Shown piece after piece: positions 2,982-11,405 of a DNA stretch of 63,795 bases. Made by a program: the position numbers and the translations under genes. The stretch is taken from contig JAGWJY010000013.1 in NCBI GenBank assembly GCA_028865545.1, positions 1 to 63,795 on the forward strand, in the 5' to 3' direction. Positions within the stretch are counted from its first letter, which is position 1, and each line of letters begins with the position of its first letter. Source of the DNA: Alphaproteobacteria bacterium (lineage in GTDB: Bacteria; Pseudomonadota; Alphaproteobacteria; Micropepsales; Micropepsaceae). Below the pieces are notes generated by a model, which saw only the letters and a list, made by a program, of their open reading frames with translations, searched no databases and was not told where the DNA came from.

Positions 2982-5177
2982 ATGAAGGACGCAGCGCTAA
3001 AGCCCACCGCCCCCCCGGCCGAGACTGTCGGCGTGCTCCTGCCTTTGCCGCTGGCGGGCGCCTATGACTACAAGCTGCCACACGGCATCCATGCCACGCG
3101 CGGGATGGTGGTGTGCGCCCCCCTGGGCTCGCGCGAAAGCCTGGGCGTGGTGTGGGGGAAGGCCGAAGGCGCCGTCGGCGACAACCGGCTGAAAGAGGCC
3201 GTCCCTCTCGAGGGACAGCCAGCCCTGCCCGCTGGCTTGTGCGATTTCGTCGACTGGGTGTCGCATTACACCCTGACGCCACCAGGCTTGGTGCTGGCCA
3301 TGGCGCTGCGCTCGCGCCAGGCTTTCGAGGCCGAAATCCCGCGCACCGCTTATGTGAAAGGCGAAGCTTTGCCAAAGCGGATGACGCCAACCCGCCAGCG
3401 CGTACTGGATATCGCGGCCGACGGATTGGCACGCTCCGTTCCGCAACTGGCAGAAGAATCCAACGCGACGCCGGCCGTGGTGCGCGGTTTGGTGGAAGCT
3501 GGCGCGCTGTTGGAGGTCGAGCTTCCGGAATTTCCTCCTTTCCAGGCACCTGATCCGGATTTCACCAAGACGACGCTCAACACCGAACAAGACCTTGCTG
3601 CCCACTTGCTGCGATCCGGCGTGGCGGGACACCGCTTCACCGTCAGCCTGCTCGACGGCGTGACCGGATCCGGCAAAACCGAGACCTATTTCGAAGCCGT
3701 TGCTGAAACATTGCGCCGCGACCGGCAGACCTTGATCCTGCTGCCCGAGATCGCGCTGACGGTGCAATTCCTCGACCGTTTCGCGGAACGCTTTGGCGCA
3801 CGCCCCACCGAATGGCATTCGGACCTGACACAGAAAGAACGGCGCCGGGCCTGGCGCGCGGTGATAAACGGCGAAGCGCGGGTGGTGGTGGGCGCACGTT
3901 CGGCACTGTTCCTGCCCTTCCAATCGCTCGGGCTGATCATCGTCGATGAAGAGCACGAGCAGGCCTACAAGCAGGAAGACGGCGCCATCTATCACGCCCG
4001 CGACATGGCGGTGGTGCGCGGCCGTATCGAGAACTGTCCGGTGGTGCTGGCCAGCGCCACGCCGTCGCTTGAGACTTATGTGAATGCCACAAGCGGACGC
4101 TACGCGCATCTGCGCCTGCACAGCCGTCATGGCGACGCGGTGATGCCGCAAGTACGCCTGATAGACATGCGCGAGGCGCGTGGCGAGCCTGGCACATTTC
4201 TCTCGCCGCCCTTGCGCGAGGCGCTGGCCGTGACGCTGGGCGCCGGCGAACAGGCAATGTTGTTTCTCAACCGGCGCGGTTACGCGCCGCTGACGTTGTG
4301 CGCCGCCTGCGGTCACAAAATGGTTTGCCGCCAATGCTCGGCCTGGCTGGTGGAGCATCGTTATCGCAAGCGGCTGGTCTGCCATCACTGCGGCTACGAA
4401 ACGGCGACGCCGCCGCAATGTCCGCAATGCGGTGAGCCCGGCACCCTGGCTGCCTGCGGGCCGGGTGTGGAGCGCGTGGCGGAGGAATTCAAACTCGCCT
4501 TCCCCGAAGCGCGCATGGCGATCGCCTCCTCCGACACGTTGCACGGCCCCTCGGAAACGCAAGCAGCGATCCGCGCGATGTCGAAGCGCGAGACCGATGT
4601 GCTGATCGGTACACAAATCGTGGCCAAGGGCCATCACTTCCCACAATTGACTTTGGTGGGCGTGGTCGATGCCGATCTCGGCGGTTCCGACGGCGATCTG
4701 CGGGCGCGCGAGCGGACTTTCCAATTGCTGCACCAAGTGTCTGGCCGCGCCGGCCGCGCCGAGAAGCCAGGCCTGGTGCTGATGCAGACGCGTAATCCCG
4801 AAGACGCTGTTATGAAAGCGCTGACGGCATCGGATCGCGACGCCTTCTATGAACAGGAACGCAAATACCGTGAAGTCACGCAAGCCCCGCCTTTCGGCCG
4901 GCTGGCGGCGATCATCCTCTCCGGCCATGATGGCGATGCGGTGCGCGCAGCCGGGCGCGAATTGGCGAAAGCGACACCGGCGGCCCGGGGCGTCAAGGTA
5001 TGGGGGCCGACGCCGGCGTTCTACTCCTTGCTGCGTGGCCAGACTCGTGAGCGCTTGCTGGTGCAAGCGGCCAAGACGGTGGATGTGCAGGCCTATCTGC
5101 GCAGCTGGCTCGCCAAGGTGGACATCGTCAAATCCGTGCGCTTGACTGTCGATGTCGATCCGGTGAGCTTTTTCTGA
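2982..5177 (+). CDS. priA: Primosomal replication protein N' (helicase PriA)
   Basis: A 3'-to-5' DNA helicase that restarts collapsed replication forks by loading the replicative helicase. The 731 residues are typical. Visible are an N-terminal 3'-OH-binding region, the Walker A motif GVTGSGKT (about 226-233), DEEH (about 322-325) and the TGSGKTE context of SF2 helicases. The zinc module has eight cysteines at about 440, 443, 449, 452, 467, 470, 480 and 483. Helicase motifs V/VI include IGTQIVAKGHHFP and QVSGRAGR. It ends in DVDPVSFF, the conserved PriA tail. The same 3' end recurs about 820 bases downstream (see the repeat entries). The next gene begins 14 bases after the stop. Confidence 0.97.
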   Translation: MKDAALKPTAPPAETVGVLLPLPLAGAYDYKLPHGIHATRGMVVCAPLGSRESLGVVWGKAEGAVGDNRLKEAVPLEGQPALPAGLCDFVDWVSHYTLTPPGLVLAMALRSRQAFEAEIPRTAYVKGEALPKRMTPTRQRVLDIAADGLARSVPQLAEESNATPAVVRGLVEAGALLEVELPEFPPFQAPDPDFTKTTLNTEQDLAAHLLRSGVAGHRFTVSLLDGVTGSGKTETYFEAVAETLRRDRQTLILLPEIALTVQFLDRFAERFGARPTEWHSDLTQKERRRAWRAVINGEARVVVGARSALFLPFQSLGLIIVDEEHEQAYKQEDGAIYHARDMAVVRGRIENCPVVLASATPSLETYVNATSGRYAHLRLHSRHGDAVMPQVRLIDMREARGEPGTFLSPPLREALAVTLGAGEQAMLFLNRRGYAPLTLCAACGHKMVCRQCSAWLVEHRYRKRLVCHHCGYETATPPQCPQCGEPGTLAACGPGVERVAEEFKLAFPEARMAIASSDTLHGPSETQAAIRAMSKRETDVLIGTQIVAKGHHFPQLTLVGVVDADLGGSDGDLRARERTFQLLHQVSGRAGRAEKPGLVLMQTRNPEDAVMKALTASDRDAFYEQERKYREVTQAPPFGRLAAIILSGHDGDAVRAAGRELAKATPAARGVKVWGPTPAFYSLLRGQTRERLLVQAAKTVDVQAYLRSWLAKVDIVKSVRLTVDVDPVSFF
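5151..5175 (+). repeat. priA 3'-end repeat, copy 1 (inside intact priA)
   Basis: The last 25 coding bases of priA match 5971-5995 at 23 positions. The two differences are both third-codon-position transitions (GAT/GAC and AGC/AGT). The copies are 820 bases apart and flank the DUF3298/4163 gene, as attachment-site duplications do when DNA integrates at the 3' end of a gene. Confidence 0.75.
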
Positions 5178-5191
5178 GCGCGGAGAAAAAG

Positions 5192-5893
5192 ATGGGACGT
5201 TTTGCAATCGTCGCCCTCGTGGCGCTAACGGGCGTGGCCTCGGCCGCGTCCGATTACAATAAGCACGAGACCTCGCCGCTTCTCGACACCCGCTTGCGCG
5301 TTCCCGCAGCGGCGATAGCGATTGCGCCGTTGCGGGCCGAAATTCTGGCGCGCTATGCCACCGACAAGAAGAATGCCGCGGCGGACGCCGATTCCCACAT
5401 GAGCATCCTCGACGAAACCTGGCGGGTGACCTTCGAGAGCGCGGCAGTCATCAGTCTTTCGGATGAAATCTTCGCCGACGAGGGCGGCGCTCATCCCAAC
5501 GGCGCCTTCGACACCATCGTATGGGATAAGCGCGCGGGCCACGCCGTACCGATCACCGCGTTCTTCGTACCGGAGAAATCGCGGGCGGCGTTGCAAGCGA
5601 TTGCGGCTGCCGTCCGCAAGAATTGGGCGGCGATCATGGCCAAGCGCATCGGCACCGGCCCCGGCGACGTGGACATGCAGCAGACCAACGAAACCATCAC
5701 CGGCGATGCGGCGCACCTGAGCCATTACGCGCTGACCTACGCCAAGGGTGAGAGCCACGCCAATGGCATGGTGTTCCTGTATGGCGCGGGCGAAGTGTGG
5801 CCGCATGTATTGGGCGACTTTCGCGTCGGTGTGCCCGCAAGCGTGTTCGTGGCGTATCTGAAGCCACAATGGCGCGCGACATTCGGGAAGTGA
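5192..5893 (+). CDS. Secreted DUF4163/DUF3298 domain protein (RsiV/PdaC-like)
   Basis: A 233-residue protein with a short signal peptide ending near ASA (about residue 18). The hallmark of the DUF3298/4163 pair is visible in the middle: an EGGAHPNG stretch near residue 100, where this fold binds ligand in RsiV-type proteins. DUF4163 would occupy about residues 35-95 and DUF3298 about 105-225. Members include anti-sigma factor RsiV and peptidoglycan-binding proteins. This one has no membrane anchor and no adjacent sigma factor, so a periplasmic glycan or lysozyme-binding role is only a guess. It lies between the intact priA end and a second priA-like tail, so it may have arrived by insertion. 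Confidence 0.8.
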   Translation: MGRFAIVALVALTGVASAASDYNKHETSPLLDTRLRVPAAAIAIAPLRAEILARYATDKKNAAADADSHMSILDETWRVTFESAAVISLSDEIFADEGGAHPNGAFDTIVWDKRAGHAVPITAFFVPEKSRAALQAIAAAVRKNWAAIMAKRIGTGPGDVDMQQTNETITGDAAHLSHYALTYAKGESHANGMVFLYGAGEVWPHVLGDFRVGVPASVFVAYLKPQWRATFGK

Positions 5894-5970
5894 CGCTATT
5901 TCTGCTCTGTCGGGACGCCAAAGCAGTGGGTGAAGCCGTCATCCTCGGTCGGGAAAAATTCCGTCCGGCC

Positions 5971-5997
5971 GATGTCGACCCGGTGAGTTTTTTCTAG
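5971..5997 (+). pseudogene. Remnant of a priA 3' end (DVDPVSFF tail, copy 2)
   Basis: These 27 bases encode DVDPVSFF and a stop, the same eight residues that end intact PriA. They match the real priA 3' end at 23 of the first 25 bases; the stop is TAG instead of TGA. The upstream sequence in the same frame (back to about 5880) is only faintly PriA-like and lacks helicase motifs, so it is not a functional gene. The synonymous differences suggest the copy was once coding or derives from a diverged priA allele. Confidence 0.6.
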
Positions 5998-6019
5998 CAG
6001 GGATGTTTCCGACGAGACC

Positions 6020-6349
6020 TCAAGGCGCGTTCGAGTCGGAAAATTCCATGCACTGCTTATACATCGTCGTCGCACGGTACTTTTGGGTCGCGAGATCGAA
6101 GCCGTTCCCGGCGGCGGTTTGCGCGGCGGATGCGGCCACCTCGCGGCACCACGCTTCGGACTTGGAGACCGCCGGCGCTGGTGTCGCGGCGTTGTCGGCC
6201 GTTGCGGTGGGTTGCGGCGCCAGCGTGTCCGGCGCACTCTGTTCAGGTTGCCCAAGCCCGACATAGTTCATCGTATGGTTCCAGTCAGCGTCGGTACAGC
6301 CGGAAAGCAGAAGTCCCGCGATGACAATCCCGACAATGCGCATCTTCAT
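6020..6349 (-). CDS. Small lipoprotein of unknown function
   Basis: A 109-residue protein with a classic lipoprotein signal: Lys/Arg at the N-terminus, a short hydrophobic stretch, then lipobox LLSGC with the lipidated Cys near residue 18. The mature part has a Pro/Ala/Thr-rich linker (about 38-62) and a C-terminal segment containing two cysteines (WCREVA and YKQCMEF), which could form a disulfide. No enzymatic motif is seen. It stands alone between the priA region and leuC. I do not recognise the family. Confidence 0.75.
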   Translation of the reverse strand: MKMRIVGIVIAGLLLSGCTDADWNHTMNYVGLGQPEQSAPDTLAPQPTATADNAATPAPAVSKSEAWCREVAASAAQTAAGNGFDLATQKYRATTMYKQCMEFSDSNAP

Positions 6350-6460: not shown

Positions 6461-7864
6461 TCAGGACTGGAACTCCCTTACGTCGGCTAGGTGCCCGGCA
6501 ATCGCGGCGGCGGCAGCCATGGCCGGTGACATCAGATGGGTGCGCCCGCCGCGCCCCTGGCGACCCTCGAAATTGCGGTTGGAGGTTGAGGCACAGCGCT
6601 CGCCCGGCGCCAGCTTGTCGGCATTCATCGCCAGACACATCGAGCAACCCGGTTCGCGCCATTCAAAGCCGGCAGCGAGGAAGATCTGGTCAAGACCTTC
6701 CTGTTCGGCCTGCTCCTTCACCAACCCGGAGCCCGGAACCACCATGGCGCCGACATGGGCGGCGACCTTCTTGCCTTTGGCGATGACGGCAGCGGCGCGA
6801 AGATCCTCGATGCGGCCGTTGGTGCAAGACCCGATGAAGACGCGGTCCACCTTTACCTCGGTCAGCTTCGTGCCAGGCTTCAGATCCATATAAGCGAGAG
6901 CGCGTTCGATACCGGCACGCTGGTTCTCATCGCGCACCGAAGCCGGATCGGGTACCACACCAGTCACCGGCAGCGCCTGTTCGGGCGAGGTGCCCCAGGT
7001 CACCATCGGCACGATGTCGCGCGCATCGAGCACGATCTCGGCGTCGAACACCGCGTCGTCATCGGATTTCAGCGTGCGCCAGTATTTGACCGCCGCTTCG
7101 AACGCGGCCGCCTTCGGGGCTCGCGGTTTGCCCGCGACATACGCAAAGGTGGTTTCGTCGGGCGCGATCAAACCCGCGCGCGCACCGCCTTCAATGGTCA
7201 TGTTGCACAGGGTCATGCGGCCTTCCATTGACAGGCCCGTAACGGCGTCGCCGGCATATTCGATCACATAGCCCGTGCCGCCCGCCGTGCCGATCCTGGC
7301 GATGACGGCCAGCGCAATGTCTTTCGCCGTGACACCGATCGGCAGCTTGCCGCTCACGGTCACGCGCATGTTCTTGGATTTCGGGATCAGCAAGGTTTGC
7401 GTCGCCAGCACATGCTCGACTTCGCTGGTGCCGATGCCGAAGGCCAGCGCCCCGAAGGCGCCATGCGTCGAGGTGTGAGAATCGCCGCAGACGATGGTGG
7501 CGCCCGGCAGAGTCCAACCTTGTTCCGGTCCCACGATATGCACGATGCCCTGGCGGATGTCGTCCATCGCCAGATATTCGATGCCGAACTCGCGCGCGTT
7601 CTTCTCCAACGTGGCAATCTGCTCGGCAGATTCCGGATCGGCGATGCCTTTGGCGCGGTCCTTGGTCGGCACATTGTGGTCAGCAACTGCAAGGGCGAGC
7701 TCGGGTCGGCGCGGTTTGCGCCCGGCATTGCGCAAGCCTTCGAAGGCCTGCGGGCTGGTCACCTCGTGCACCAGATGACGGTCGACATAGAGAACGCTGG
7801 ATTCCCCGGCGGCCTCGTGCACCAGATGCGCGTCCCAGATCTTGTCGTAGAGCGTCTTGCCCAT
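6461..7864 (-). CDS. leuC: 3-isopropylmalate dehydratase large subunit
   Basis: Catalyses isomerisation of 2- to 3-isopropylmalate in leucine synthesis together with LeuD; cytoplasmic, [4Fe-4S]-dependent. The 467 residues are the standard length. The cluster ligands are visible: Cys347 in GSCTNG, and Cys407 and Cys410 in EPGCSMC. The substrate-side motif [12 protein letters not shown] is near residue 127. The start is set at [10 protein letters not shown], with AGGA a few bases upstream; an in-frame start 33 bases earlier has no such support. leuD is not adjacent, so the two subunits are encoded apart here. Confidence 0.97.
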
Positions 7865-7930
7865 GGATTTCCTGCCTTTCCGGCGTGCTAACAACACCAG
7901 GAGGCGGCGCGGCGCAAGACCCTTAAGCCC

Positions 7931-8753: not shown

Positions 8754-11405
8754 TTAGGAGTCGGCCAAGCGACGCAAAGTGTAGAGCAATTCCAAAGCTT
8801 CTTTGGGCGTCAGCGCGTCCGGATCGACGGCGCGCAGGGCATCTTTGACCGTGTTCTTTGCCTCTGCCGTCTTCGCCTCCGTGCGGAACAGCGGCAGATC
8901 ATCGATGCGGGCGAGAGGCTTGTGGCCCTCACGCCCCTCCTCCAACGCTCGCAGCACTTCCTGCGCGCGCGCCACGACCGGCGCGGGAAGGCCTGCCAAC
9001 TTCGCCACATGGATACCATAGGAACGGTCGGCGACACCGGACACGACCTCATGCAGGAACACGATAGTGTCGTTCCACTCCCGCACCCGCATGGTAACGC
9101 AGGCGAGCGACGGCAGACGTTCGGCGAGCGCCGTCATTTCGTGATAATGCGTGGCAAACAGCGCGCGCGATTTGTTCTTCAGGTTAAGATGTTCGGCGGT
9201 GGCCCAGGCGATGGCGAGGCCGTCGAAGGTCGCTGTACCGCGACCGATCTCATCCAGGATCACCAGACTTCTATCGGTTGCCTGGTTGAGGATGGCGGCG
9301 GTTTCCACCATCTCGACCATGAAGGTGGAGCGGCCCGCCGCCAGATCGTCGCCGGCGCCGACGCGGCTGAACAAGCGGTCTACGACGCCGATATGGGCGC
9401 TGTCGGCCGGTACGAACGCGCCCATCTGCGCCAGAATGGCGATCAGCGCGTTCTGCCGCAGGAAGGTCGACTTGCCGGCCATATTCGGACCGGTCACCAG
9501 CCACAGCCGTTTGTCCGACGACAGATCGCAATCATTGGGCACGAAGGGGCCGGCGTGGATCGACTCCAATGCGGCTTCGACCACCGGATGGCGGCCGCGG
9601 ACAATAGCGAAGGCACGGCCATCGTCGATCTTCGGGCGCACATGCCGCTTGCCGACGGCAAGATCCGCGAGTGCGGAGGCGACATCGAGCACGGCCAGTG
9701 CATCCGCCATGCGCGCCAGCGACAGCGCAAGCGCCAGCGCCTCGTTCGCCATCTCGTCGAAGAGATCTTTTTCAATGGCCAAGGCCTGATCCCCGGCCTG
9801 CGAGATGCGGTTTGCCAAGGTCGACAACTCGTCCGTCGAAAAGCGCACCGAACCACCCATGGTCTGGCGATGGCGATAGCCACCACCGGTCATCAGTTTG
9901 TCGGCGTGCTGCGAGGCGACTTCGATAAAAAATCCAAGCACGCCGTTGTGCTTGATCTTGAGCGGGGCGCCGCTTTCTTCGCGGTAGCGCGTTTCCAGCG
10001 AGGCAATCACTCGGCGCGATTCGTCGCGCAGCGCGCGCACTTCGTCGAGTGGCGGATGCGCTCCGGCGCGTACGAAACCGCCGTCACGCGCGTAAAATGG
10101 CGGCTCATCGACCAGCAACTGTATGAGCCTGGCGTTCAGGGCCGAGACGTCGGCGGTGACTTGCACAAGCGCGCGAGCCGCATCGGCGGCCTCTCCGCGC
10201 TCCGTTTCGCCGGTCAATATCTCGCGCATGGCACGGGCACAGAGAATGCCATCGCGCAACGCGGCAAGATCGCGAGGGCCGGCGCGGCCCACCGACAAAC
10301 GCGCCAAGGCGCGCGCGATGTCTGGAGCGCGCCGCAACCTTTCGCGCAGTGCATCTCGGGTATCATTGTCATCGGCGAAGAACGCCACTGCGTCCTGTCG
10401 CGCTGCGAGCGCTTTCACGTCGGTCAGCGGTGCGGCCAGACGGGCGGCCAGCAATCGTGCGCCCGCCGCTGTCACGGTGCGGTCGATCACGGATAGGAAG
10501 CTCCCGCGCCGTTCGCCGGACAGCGTCTCGGTCAATTCAAGATTGCGCCGCGTTGCCGCATCGATCGCCATGAAGGCCTGCGGCGCTTCCCGGATCAGCG
10601 ATCGCAGAACGGGCAATTTTCCCTTCTGCGTCAGCTCGAGATAGGCGATGAGCGCGCCGGCAGCGGACAATTCGGCGCGCGAAAACGCCCCGAAGCCCGC
10701 AAGTTCTGCGACACCGTAATGTGTCTTGAGCGCCCGCTCACCCGCGCCGGAGTCGAATTTCACCGCAGGAAGCGCTGTCAGGGCGCCGCCCAAGGCCGCG
10801 ATGACCGGTGCAAAGGCGGCATCGTCGAGGAGACTGTCCGGCATCAACACCTCGCTCGGCGCCAGCCGCGCGATTTCGACGGCCAGATCGCCGGCGCCGA
10901 TAGTGGCGACGACGAAACTTCCCGTCGACATCTCGGCACTGGCCAGCGCGAATTCACCGCCCGCACGTCCCAGACTCACCAGCGTGTTGGCCCGCGACGG
11001 CTCCAGCAAGGAATCCTCGGTCAACGTTCCCGGCGTCACCAAGCGGACGACATCGCGCCGCACCACGGACTTGGACCCGCGCTTCCTGGCCTCGGCAGGG
11101 TCCTCCACCTGCTCGCAAATGGCGACCCGGAAACCCTTGCGGATCAGCCGCTCCAAGTACTGTTCGGCGGCGTGAACGGGCACGCCGCACATCGGAATAT
11201 CGTCGCCCAGATGCTTGCCCCGTTTGGTCAGCGCGATATCCAGCGCCTCCGCTGCCCTTGCGGCATCCTCGAAAAACAGTTCGTAGAAATCACCCATCCG
11301 GTAGAACAGGAGATAATCAGGGTGGGCGGCCTTGATCTCGAGGTACTGCGCCATCAAAGGCGTTGTGCCGTCGGCCGGCGGTATGGGGCTCTGCTGATCG
11401 TTCAT
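8754..11405 (-). CDS. mutS: DNA mismatch repair protein MutS
   Basis: Recognises base mismatches and small loops and starts repair with MutL. At 883 residues it is the usual MutS1 size. The mismatch-reading Phe-x-Glu motif is at residues 40-42 (GDFYELF). The connector, lever and clamp domains follow, and the ATPase Walker A, GPNMAGKS, is at about 639-646, then the Walker B region ([11 protein letters not shown]) and the FATHYHE segment. The C-terminus is a helix-turn-helix dimerisation region. The gene is divergent from maeB with about 100 bases between their starts. Confidence 0.97.

Follow-up and report, generated by a model that had tools for sequence, protein, structure and literature searches.

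The analyzed stretch of DNA (63,795 nucleotides, referred to as the window) corresponds to contig 52 of an assembly of 3.4 Mb in 101 contigs. It carries an intact priA gene on the forward strand (2982..5177, 731 aa, recognized as an open reading frame with the Pfam PriA domains, including PriA_C), a 233-aa PdaC/DUF3298-type gene (5192..5893, +; hereafter the cargo) that starts on the same strand 14 nt behind the priA stop codon and is probably cotranscribed with priA, 76 bp of further sequence (5894..5969) and, at 5970..5997 (+), a second copy of the last bases of priA. These are followed on the reverse strand by a lipoprotein-like gene (6020..6349), for which no Pfam or NCBIfam match was obtained, and by the leuC open reading frame (6461..7897), the conserved neighbour on the right-hand side. 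The repeat search of the window returned 24 of 26 identical bases between 5150-5175 and 5970-5995, at a spacing of 820 bases, with 23 of 25 matching between 5151-5175 and 5971-5995, which confirms the duplicated priA tail of the original prediction (23/25, 820 bases apart). Both coding differences are synonymous and either copy encodes DVDPVSFF followed by a stop, again as predicted; the stop codons differ besides, being TGA in the upstream tail (5175-5177) and TAG in the downstream one (5995-5997), and the two copies show four differences over the 27 nt of tail including the stop. The chance that such a similarity is accidental was checked as well: allowing up to 3 mismatches, the 25-mer was found two times in the window and in none of 100 shuffles, while the reversed tail pattern, used as a control, gave 0 matches in the home genome and 40 relatives. 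The cargo had been described as lying exactly between the tails; it does lie between them, but it is not flush with the second one, as the 76 bp intervene, and searches with 5894-5969 as DNA and as two peptides found no convincing homologue in the fetched loci.

All locus counts refer to L059-L117 (59 loci, 63-92% in the matched protein), with L118-L138 (49-57%) left out, and the genome searches covered a genus set of 69 genomes, home genome included. As the similarity search recovered loci of Rhizomicrobium electricum along with those of many metagenome bins, we speak of a Rhizomicrobium-like genus; L059, L060 and L082 were paired by inference with the genomes G073, G021 and G015, respectively. 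The nearest fetched priA relative is L059 (92% in the matched protein stretch, 85-86% in DNA over long shared stretches), and here, as had been suggested for an unoccupied site, priA has a single tail and no DUF3298-type gene behind it, but the same lipoprotein-like gene, with leuC farther on. L060 presents a second empty site, with the order priA, lipoprotein-like gene, leuC, and no cargo; the lipoprotein-like gene lies directly behind priA in both loci (tblastn 76% and 57%). As for the question of which tail is closer to the relatives, the last 27 bases of the L059 priA, TAG included, are identical to the downstream copy of the window (27/27 over 5971-5997), a match that is unique among the 59 loci, and the alignment across the junction starts to match L059 at 5970 and runs past the stop. 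The upstream copy (5151..5177, +) has four mismatches to L059 over its 27 sites and is identical to the tail of none of the 59 loci. Because of the 27/27 identity with L059, the downstream copy is, judged by the sequences, the native, displaced priA tail, and the upstream copy with its TGA most likely arrived together with the inserted gene. The alignments thus show a real insertion relative to L059 and L060, and the arrangement proposed by the original prediction, in which priA ends in a replacement tail and its original tail is displaced to the downstream side, is borne out by the two empty sites and by the L059 tail.

The assignment of the cargo to a protein family is based on Pfam matches to PdaC (E 0.014) and DUF3298 (E 0.049), both below the curated cut-offs, and on its relatives, for which the PdaC match reaches 3e-6 in L074 (just under the cut-off) and 8.6e-8 in L071 (above it). 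A weak match to an NCBIfam esterase model (2e-7, 30.6 bits vs. a cut-off of 200) was left unused, and the structure model of the protein was poor (mean pLDDT 44.4). At E 0.001 the cargo protein was matched in 6 of the 69 genus genomes, the only strong matches besides the window being those in G068 and G067 (52-53%), where the gene adjoins priA directly (L074/L139 and L071/L140, respectively); across the class, the cargo alignment found matches in 10 of 289 genomes, of which 8 do not belong to the genus. No second tail matching the tail pattern at ≤ 2 mismatches was found in G068 and G067. The L071 contig stops within the cargo, and in its continuation (L142), which runs on to leuC, nothing came closer to the tail than 12 mismatches of 25. 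As the family is located behind priA in both L071 and L074, it has a history at the 3′ side of this gene, which makes a congener the likely donor. The donor itself was not found among the fetched loci, in which the nearest cargo relatives, the proteins of L071 and L074, are only 51 and 53% identical to that of the window.

Doubled tails are rare in the genus. The tail pattern (≤ 2 mismatches) was matched in 60 of the 69 genomes, and two neighbouring tails were seen only in the home genome (G000) and in G015; nine other second matches, all with 2 mismatches, were on other contigs or distant, and with six such matches in the control, stray hits of this quality are to be expected. The exact pattern was present in 14 of 385 genomes of the class, with G000 alone having two. 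As regards the junction, leuC follows priA in 50 of the 59 loci (the remaining nine have no leuC in the stretch covered), with a gap of ≤ 160 nt in 26 of these 50 and of 363 to 2013 nt in the other 24. The genes encountered between the two encode PIN/antitoxin-like pairs, glycosyltransferases, one ParA-like and one YHYH protein, and a protein with T5orf172 and homing-endonuclease-associated domains. Gaps of > 300 nt occur elsewhere too (leuC-mutS 38/38, with other genes there; DUF484-priA 7/27; mutS-maeB 0/30), and the priA|leuC junction is not the only variable one in this region. In L095 ('Rhizobiales bacterium dw_265'; 9151-9867, −) a protein with HNH_repeat (homing endonuclease associated) and T5orf172 (GIY-YIG-related)/MUG113 domains lies between priA and leuC, and in L062 (9158-10638) priA is followed by a ParA-like ATPase, which may have a helix-turn-helix at its N-terminus, and by a 142-aa protein with no Pfam match. 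L059 has a PIN-domain protein with an antitoxin-like partner (3373-4064) between the lipoprotein-like gene and leuC, which is absent from the window, and PIN proteins like this one are located behind priA in five other loci. Short palindrome-like repeats, with ends TGTCATTCCCG or TGTCATCCCCG and GGCATGACA or GGGATGACA, were also noticed between priA and leuC in several congeners, placed behind priA or the cargo in L087, L089, L081, L102, and L082.

The second doubled tail, that of G015 (L082), has the same anatomy with a different cargo: the gene for a 314-aa glycosyltransferase begins 5 nt behind priA, and a second priA end lies right behind its stop. This end scored 18.5 bits against a profile of the genus tails, vs. 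0.8 for the best background in a scan of 61 rows (L139 and L140 repeat L074 and L071); it has 2 mismatches to the genus-wide tail pattern, and it is the position and the profile score that carry the call. Eight of 25 sites are different between the two tails of G015, and the second is identical over its last 21 bases to the own tails of L089, L104, and L114. The retained tails of the window (about 28 bases) and of G015 (about 21) are similar in length. Members of the glycosyltransferase family are also present behind priA in L076, L085, and L087, where the profile scan of the 61 rows found no second tail, and in L083 (read after the priA stop), which ends inside the glycosyltransferase, before any second tail could show. 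Since L082, L083, L085, and L087 form one clade in the tree of priA codons 1-660, the cargo of G015 may be older than L082.

The original prediction had noted that no integrase was present, and indeed none turned up between priA and leuC in the window; the only ORF enclosed by the tails does not encode a recombinase. Ten proteins out of a list of 65 cargo ORFs from 34 loci (window included) were scanned with Pfam, and none of these proteins from between priA and leuC was an integrase. In the genus, 180 Phage_integrase matches were found in 20 of the 69 genomes, part of them listed; G015 has seven matches, only one of which is on the priA contig, and among the three listed of the four matches of G000 the sole one on the priA contig is likewise the XerC-like gene upstream of priA, as in G015. 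A pattern search of the home genome for a dif-like site gave two matches with 1 mismatch and one control match, and thus nothing usable. In the papers listed by a literature search on integrative elements priA occurs once at most, which does not prove that its use as an integration site is unreported. The small or decayed integrative element proposed as the agent is not supported, if still conceivable, with no integrase among the scanned proteins, double tails in only 2 of 60 genomes, and congeners that have the same cargo and no second tail.

The flanking genes gave signals of a different kind. Over priA codons 1-610 L059 is clearly the nearest relative of the window, while over codons 671-731 it is only the sixth, and in the last 61 codons the window stands apart from L059 and L060 together at 25 of 48 informative sites, compared with 137 of 447 before (p 0.0035). 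A suffix scan of the three-taxon sites placed the best breakpoint at codon 665 (permutation p 0.018, post hoc), which outlines a possible imported 3′ stretch of priA at 4974..5177 (+) with an uncertain left limit. In the tree of the last 71 priA codons the branch of the window measures 0.27, as against 0.10 for codons 1-660, and its grouping with L059 was not rejected (p-AU 0.567). In the last 118 codons of leuC the affinity to L059 is also lost (20/76 sites vs. 99/206, p 0.0011), and here the altered party may be L059 itself. The breakpoint tests in both genes were picked post hoc, with the data already seen, and no general loss of tree signal was found at the 3′ end genus-wide. Taken on these signals, recombination within the priA of the window is likely. 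Between 5970 and 6107, a stretch that covers the displaced tail and reaches into the end of the lipoprotein-like gene, 130 of 138 sites are identical in the window and L059; the most similar 100-nt segment scores 96, the 99% quantile of 9919 such segments being 95, and four other separate segments score 96 or 97 against L059. This high identity was not seen with L060, and most of the remaining lipoprotein-like gene is less similar to L059. No duplicated leuC tail was found in the 59 loci, where the second-best matches mostly overlap the own end of leuC.

On balance, we consider it probable that the 3′ end of a congener's priA and its next gene were added behind priA by recombination, with a scar left in place. 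The incoming DNA would have comprised the priA 3′ end of the donor together with a following PdaC/DUF3298-type gene, and the presence of such cargo directly behind priA in L071 and L074 makes a donor of this composition plausible. At the left joint, a homologous crossover in the last part of priA would have kept the gene whole while the tail and TGA of the donor were taken over; the right joint would have formed just upstream of the recipient's own last 28 priA bases, with short or no homology, and the native tail with its TAG and everything beyond it would have been retained as the scar. The empty sites, the 27/27 tail of L059, the cargo of L071 and L074, the case of G015, the loss of affinity in priA and leuC, and the failure to find an integrase at the junction are all most simply accounted for in this way, and less simply by a novel type of mobile element. 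Several observations count against it, however. The breakpoint tests are post hoc, the short priA tree leaves the grouping with L059 possible, the genus as a whole gives no general loss of tree signal at the 3′ end, and the change in leuC could be that of L059; moreover, no donor is among the loci, a duplicated leuC tail might be expected from recombination entering from the other side, and tails retained at such similar lengths are not what random junctions should produce.

The main rival, which we hold to be unlikely, reverses the direction of the event: the cargo would be resident, and L059-like DNA with an empty site, anchored in the lipoprotein-like gene, would have entered from the right and brought the tail along, the scar then being a failed removal of the cargo by incoming DNA that halted just behind it. 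The stretch 5970-6107 with its best segment above the 99% quantile fits such an entry, and a tail that is undecayed despite being unselected suits a recent arrival. The G015 tail points the same way, being seen in this genome only, although the cargo is common to its clade, and having 21 bases in common with the tails of L089, L104, and L114. The four other segments at 96 or 97 weaken the signal, though, leuC does not follow L059 farther to the right, and the excess of change at the 3′ end of the window's priA would be left unexplained. Improbable, in our view, is a site-specific insertion with the priA 3′ end as the attachment site and a recombinase that is encoded elsewhere or was since lost. 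A gene 3′ end with a replacement and a displaced tail, repeated in G015 with an unrelated cargo, is what it predicts, and unlinked Phage_integrase matches exist in both genomes (four in all in G000, seven in G015); yet the junction has no recombinase apart from the XerC-like backbone gene upstream, neighbouring doubled tails are limited to 2 of 60 genomes, and L071 and L074 have the same cargo but not the second tail. We attach a low probability also to the more specific idea that in this genus the conserved last 20-30 bases of priA are the attachment site for single recombinase-less genes that are inserted in trans like cassettes, so that each insertion would extend the priA transcript by one gene and the displaced tail would persist downstream; if true, the site would be served by a recombinase acting in trans.

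Two further alternatives concern the origin of the repeat itself. An assembly chimera of two strains is conceivable in a genome of 101 contigs, with most of the compared loci coming from metagenome bins; we think it very unlikely, as the two tails, with two differences in 25 sites (eight in G015), offer no long exact word for a misjoin, and the same anatomy recurs in a second genome. Direct repeats flanking an insert could also come from the duplication of one tail as a target site by a transposase-like event, followed by mutation. We give this hardly any credence, because the four differences from L059 are confined to the coding copy, the non-coding one being unchanged; in addition, no transposase is among the ORFs between the copies.

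Among known systems, Oliveira et al. 2017 (PMC5635113) describe hotspots of gene acquisition without mobile elements, with turnover through homologous recombination in the flanking core genes. The priA|leuC junction resembles these in having core genes on both sides, a changing cargo (as seen from the gaps and cargo types between the two genes), no visible integrase and hints of mosaic flanks; the recombination signals in priA and leuC are those of the window, with no genus-wide effect, and the short priA tree does not reject the grouping with L059. In contrast to such hotspots, a short piece of a core gene is duplicated here as a scar, and the junction is not uniquely variable. Homology-facilitated illegitimate recombination, in which according to PMC3240628 the gain of DNA usually, although not obligatorily, comes with a deletion of about the same size, would account for a homologous left joint combined with a non-homologous right one; micro-homology of 3-10 bp at the junction is a further mark of this process. 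The loss of affinity in priA would fit homologous recombination at one end, but the 71-codon tree does not reject the grouping of the window with L059. Unlike the usual outcome reported in that source, the native tail and the sequence behind it were kept relative to L059. Integrative elements and islands at gene 3′ ends (e.g., trmE or dusA; PMC8409611) share with the window the conserved gene end that is restored by the incoming tail and the displaced tail at the far end. They differ from the present case, in which no integrase was seen at the junction, the sole ORF between the tails is no recombinase, one gene only is carried and relatives with the same cargo are without a second tail.

A scar of this kind gives a direction to a gene acquisition that is otherwise hard to see, as it allows the native and the replaced end of a core gene to be told apart. 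In the Rhizomicrobium-like genus, the priA|leuC junction is thereby a small test case for the addition of genes between core genes without a visible mobile element.
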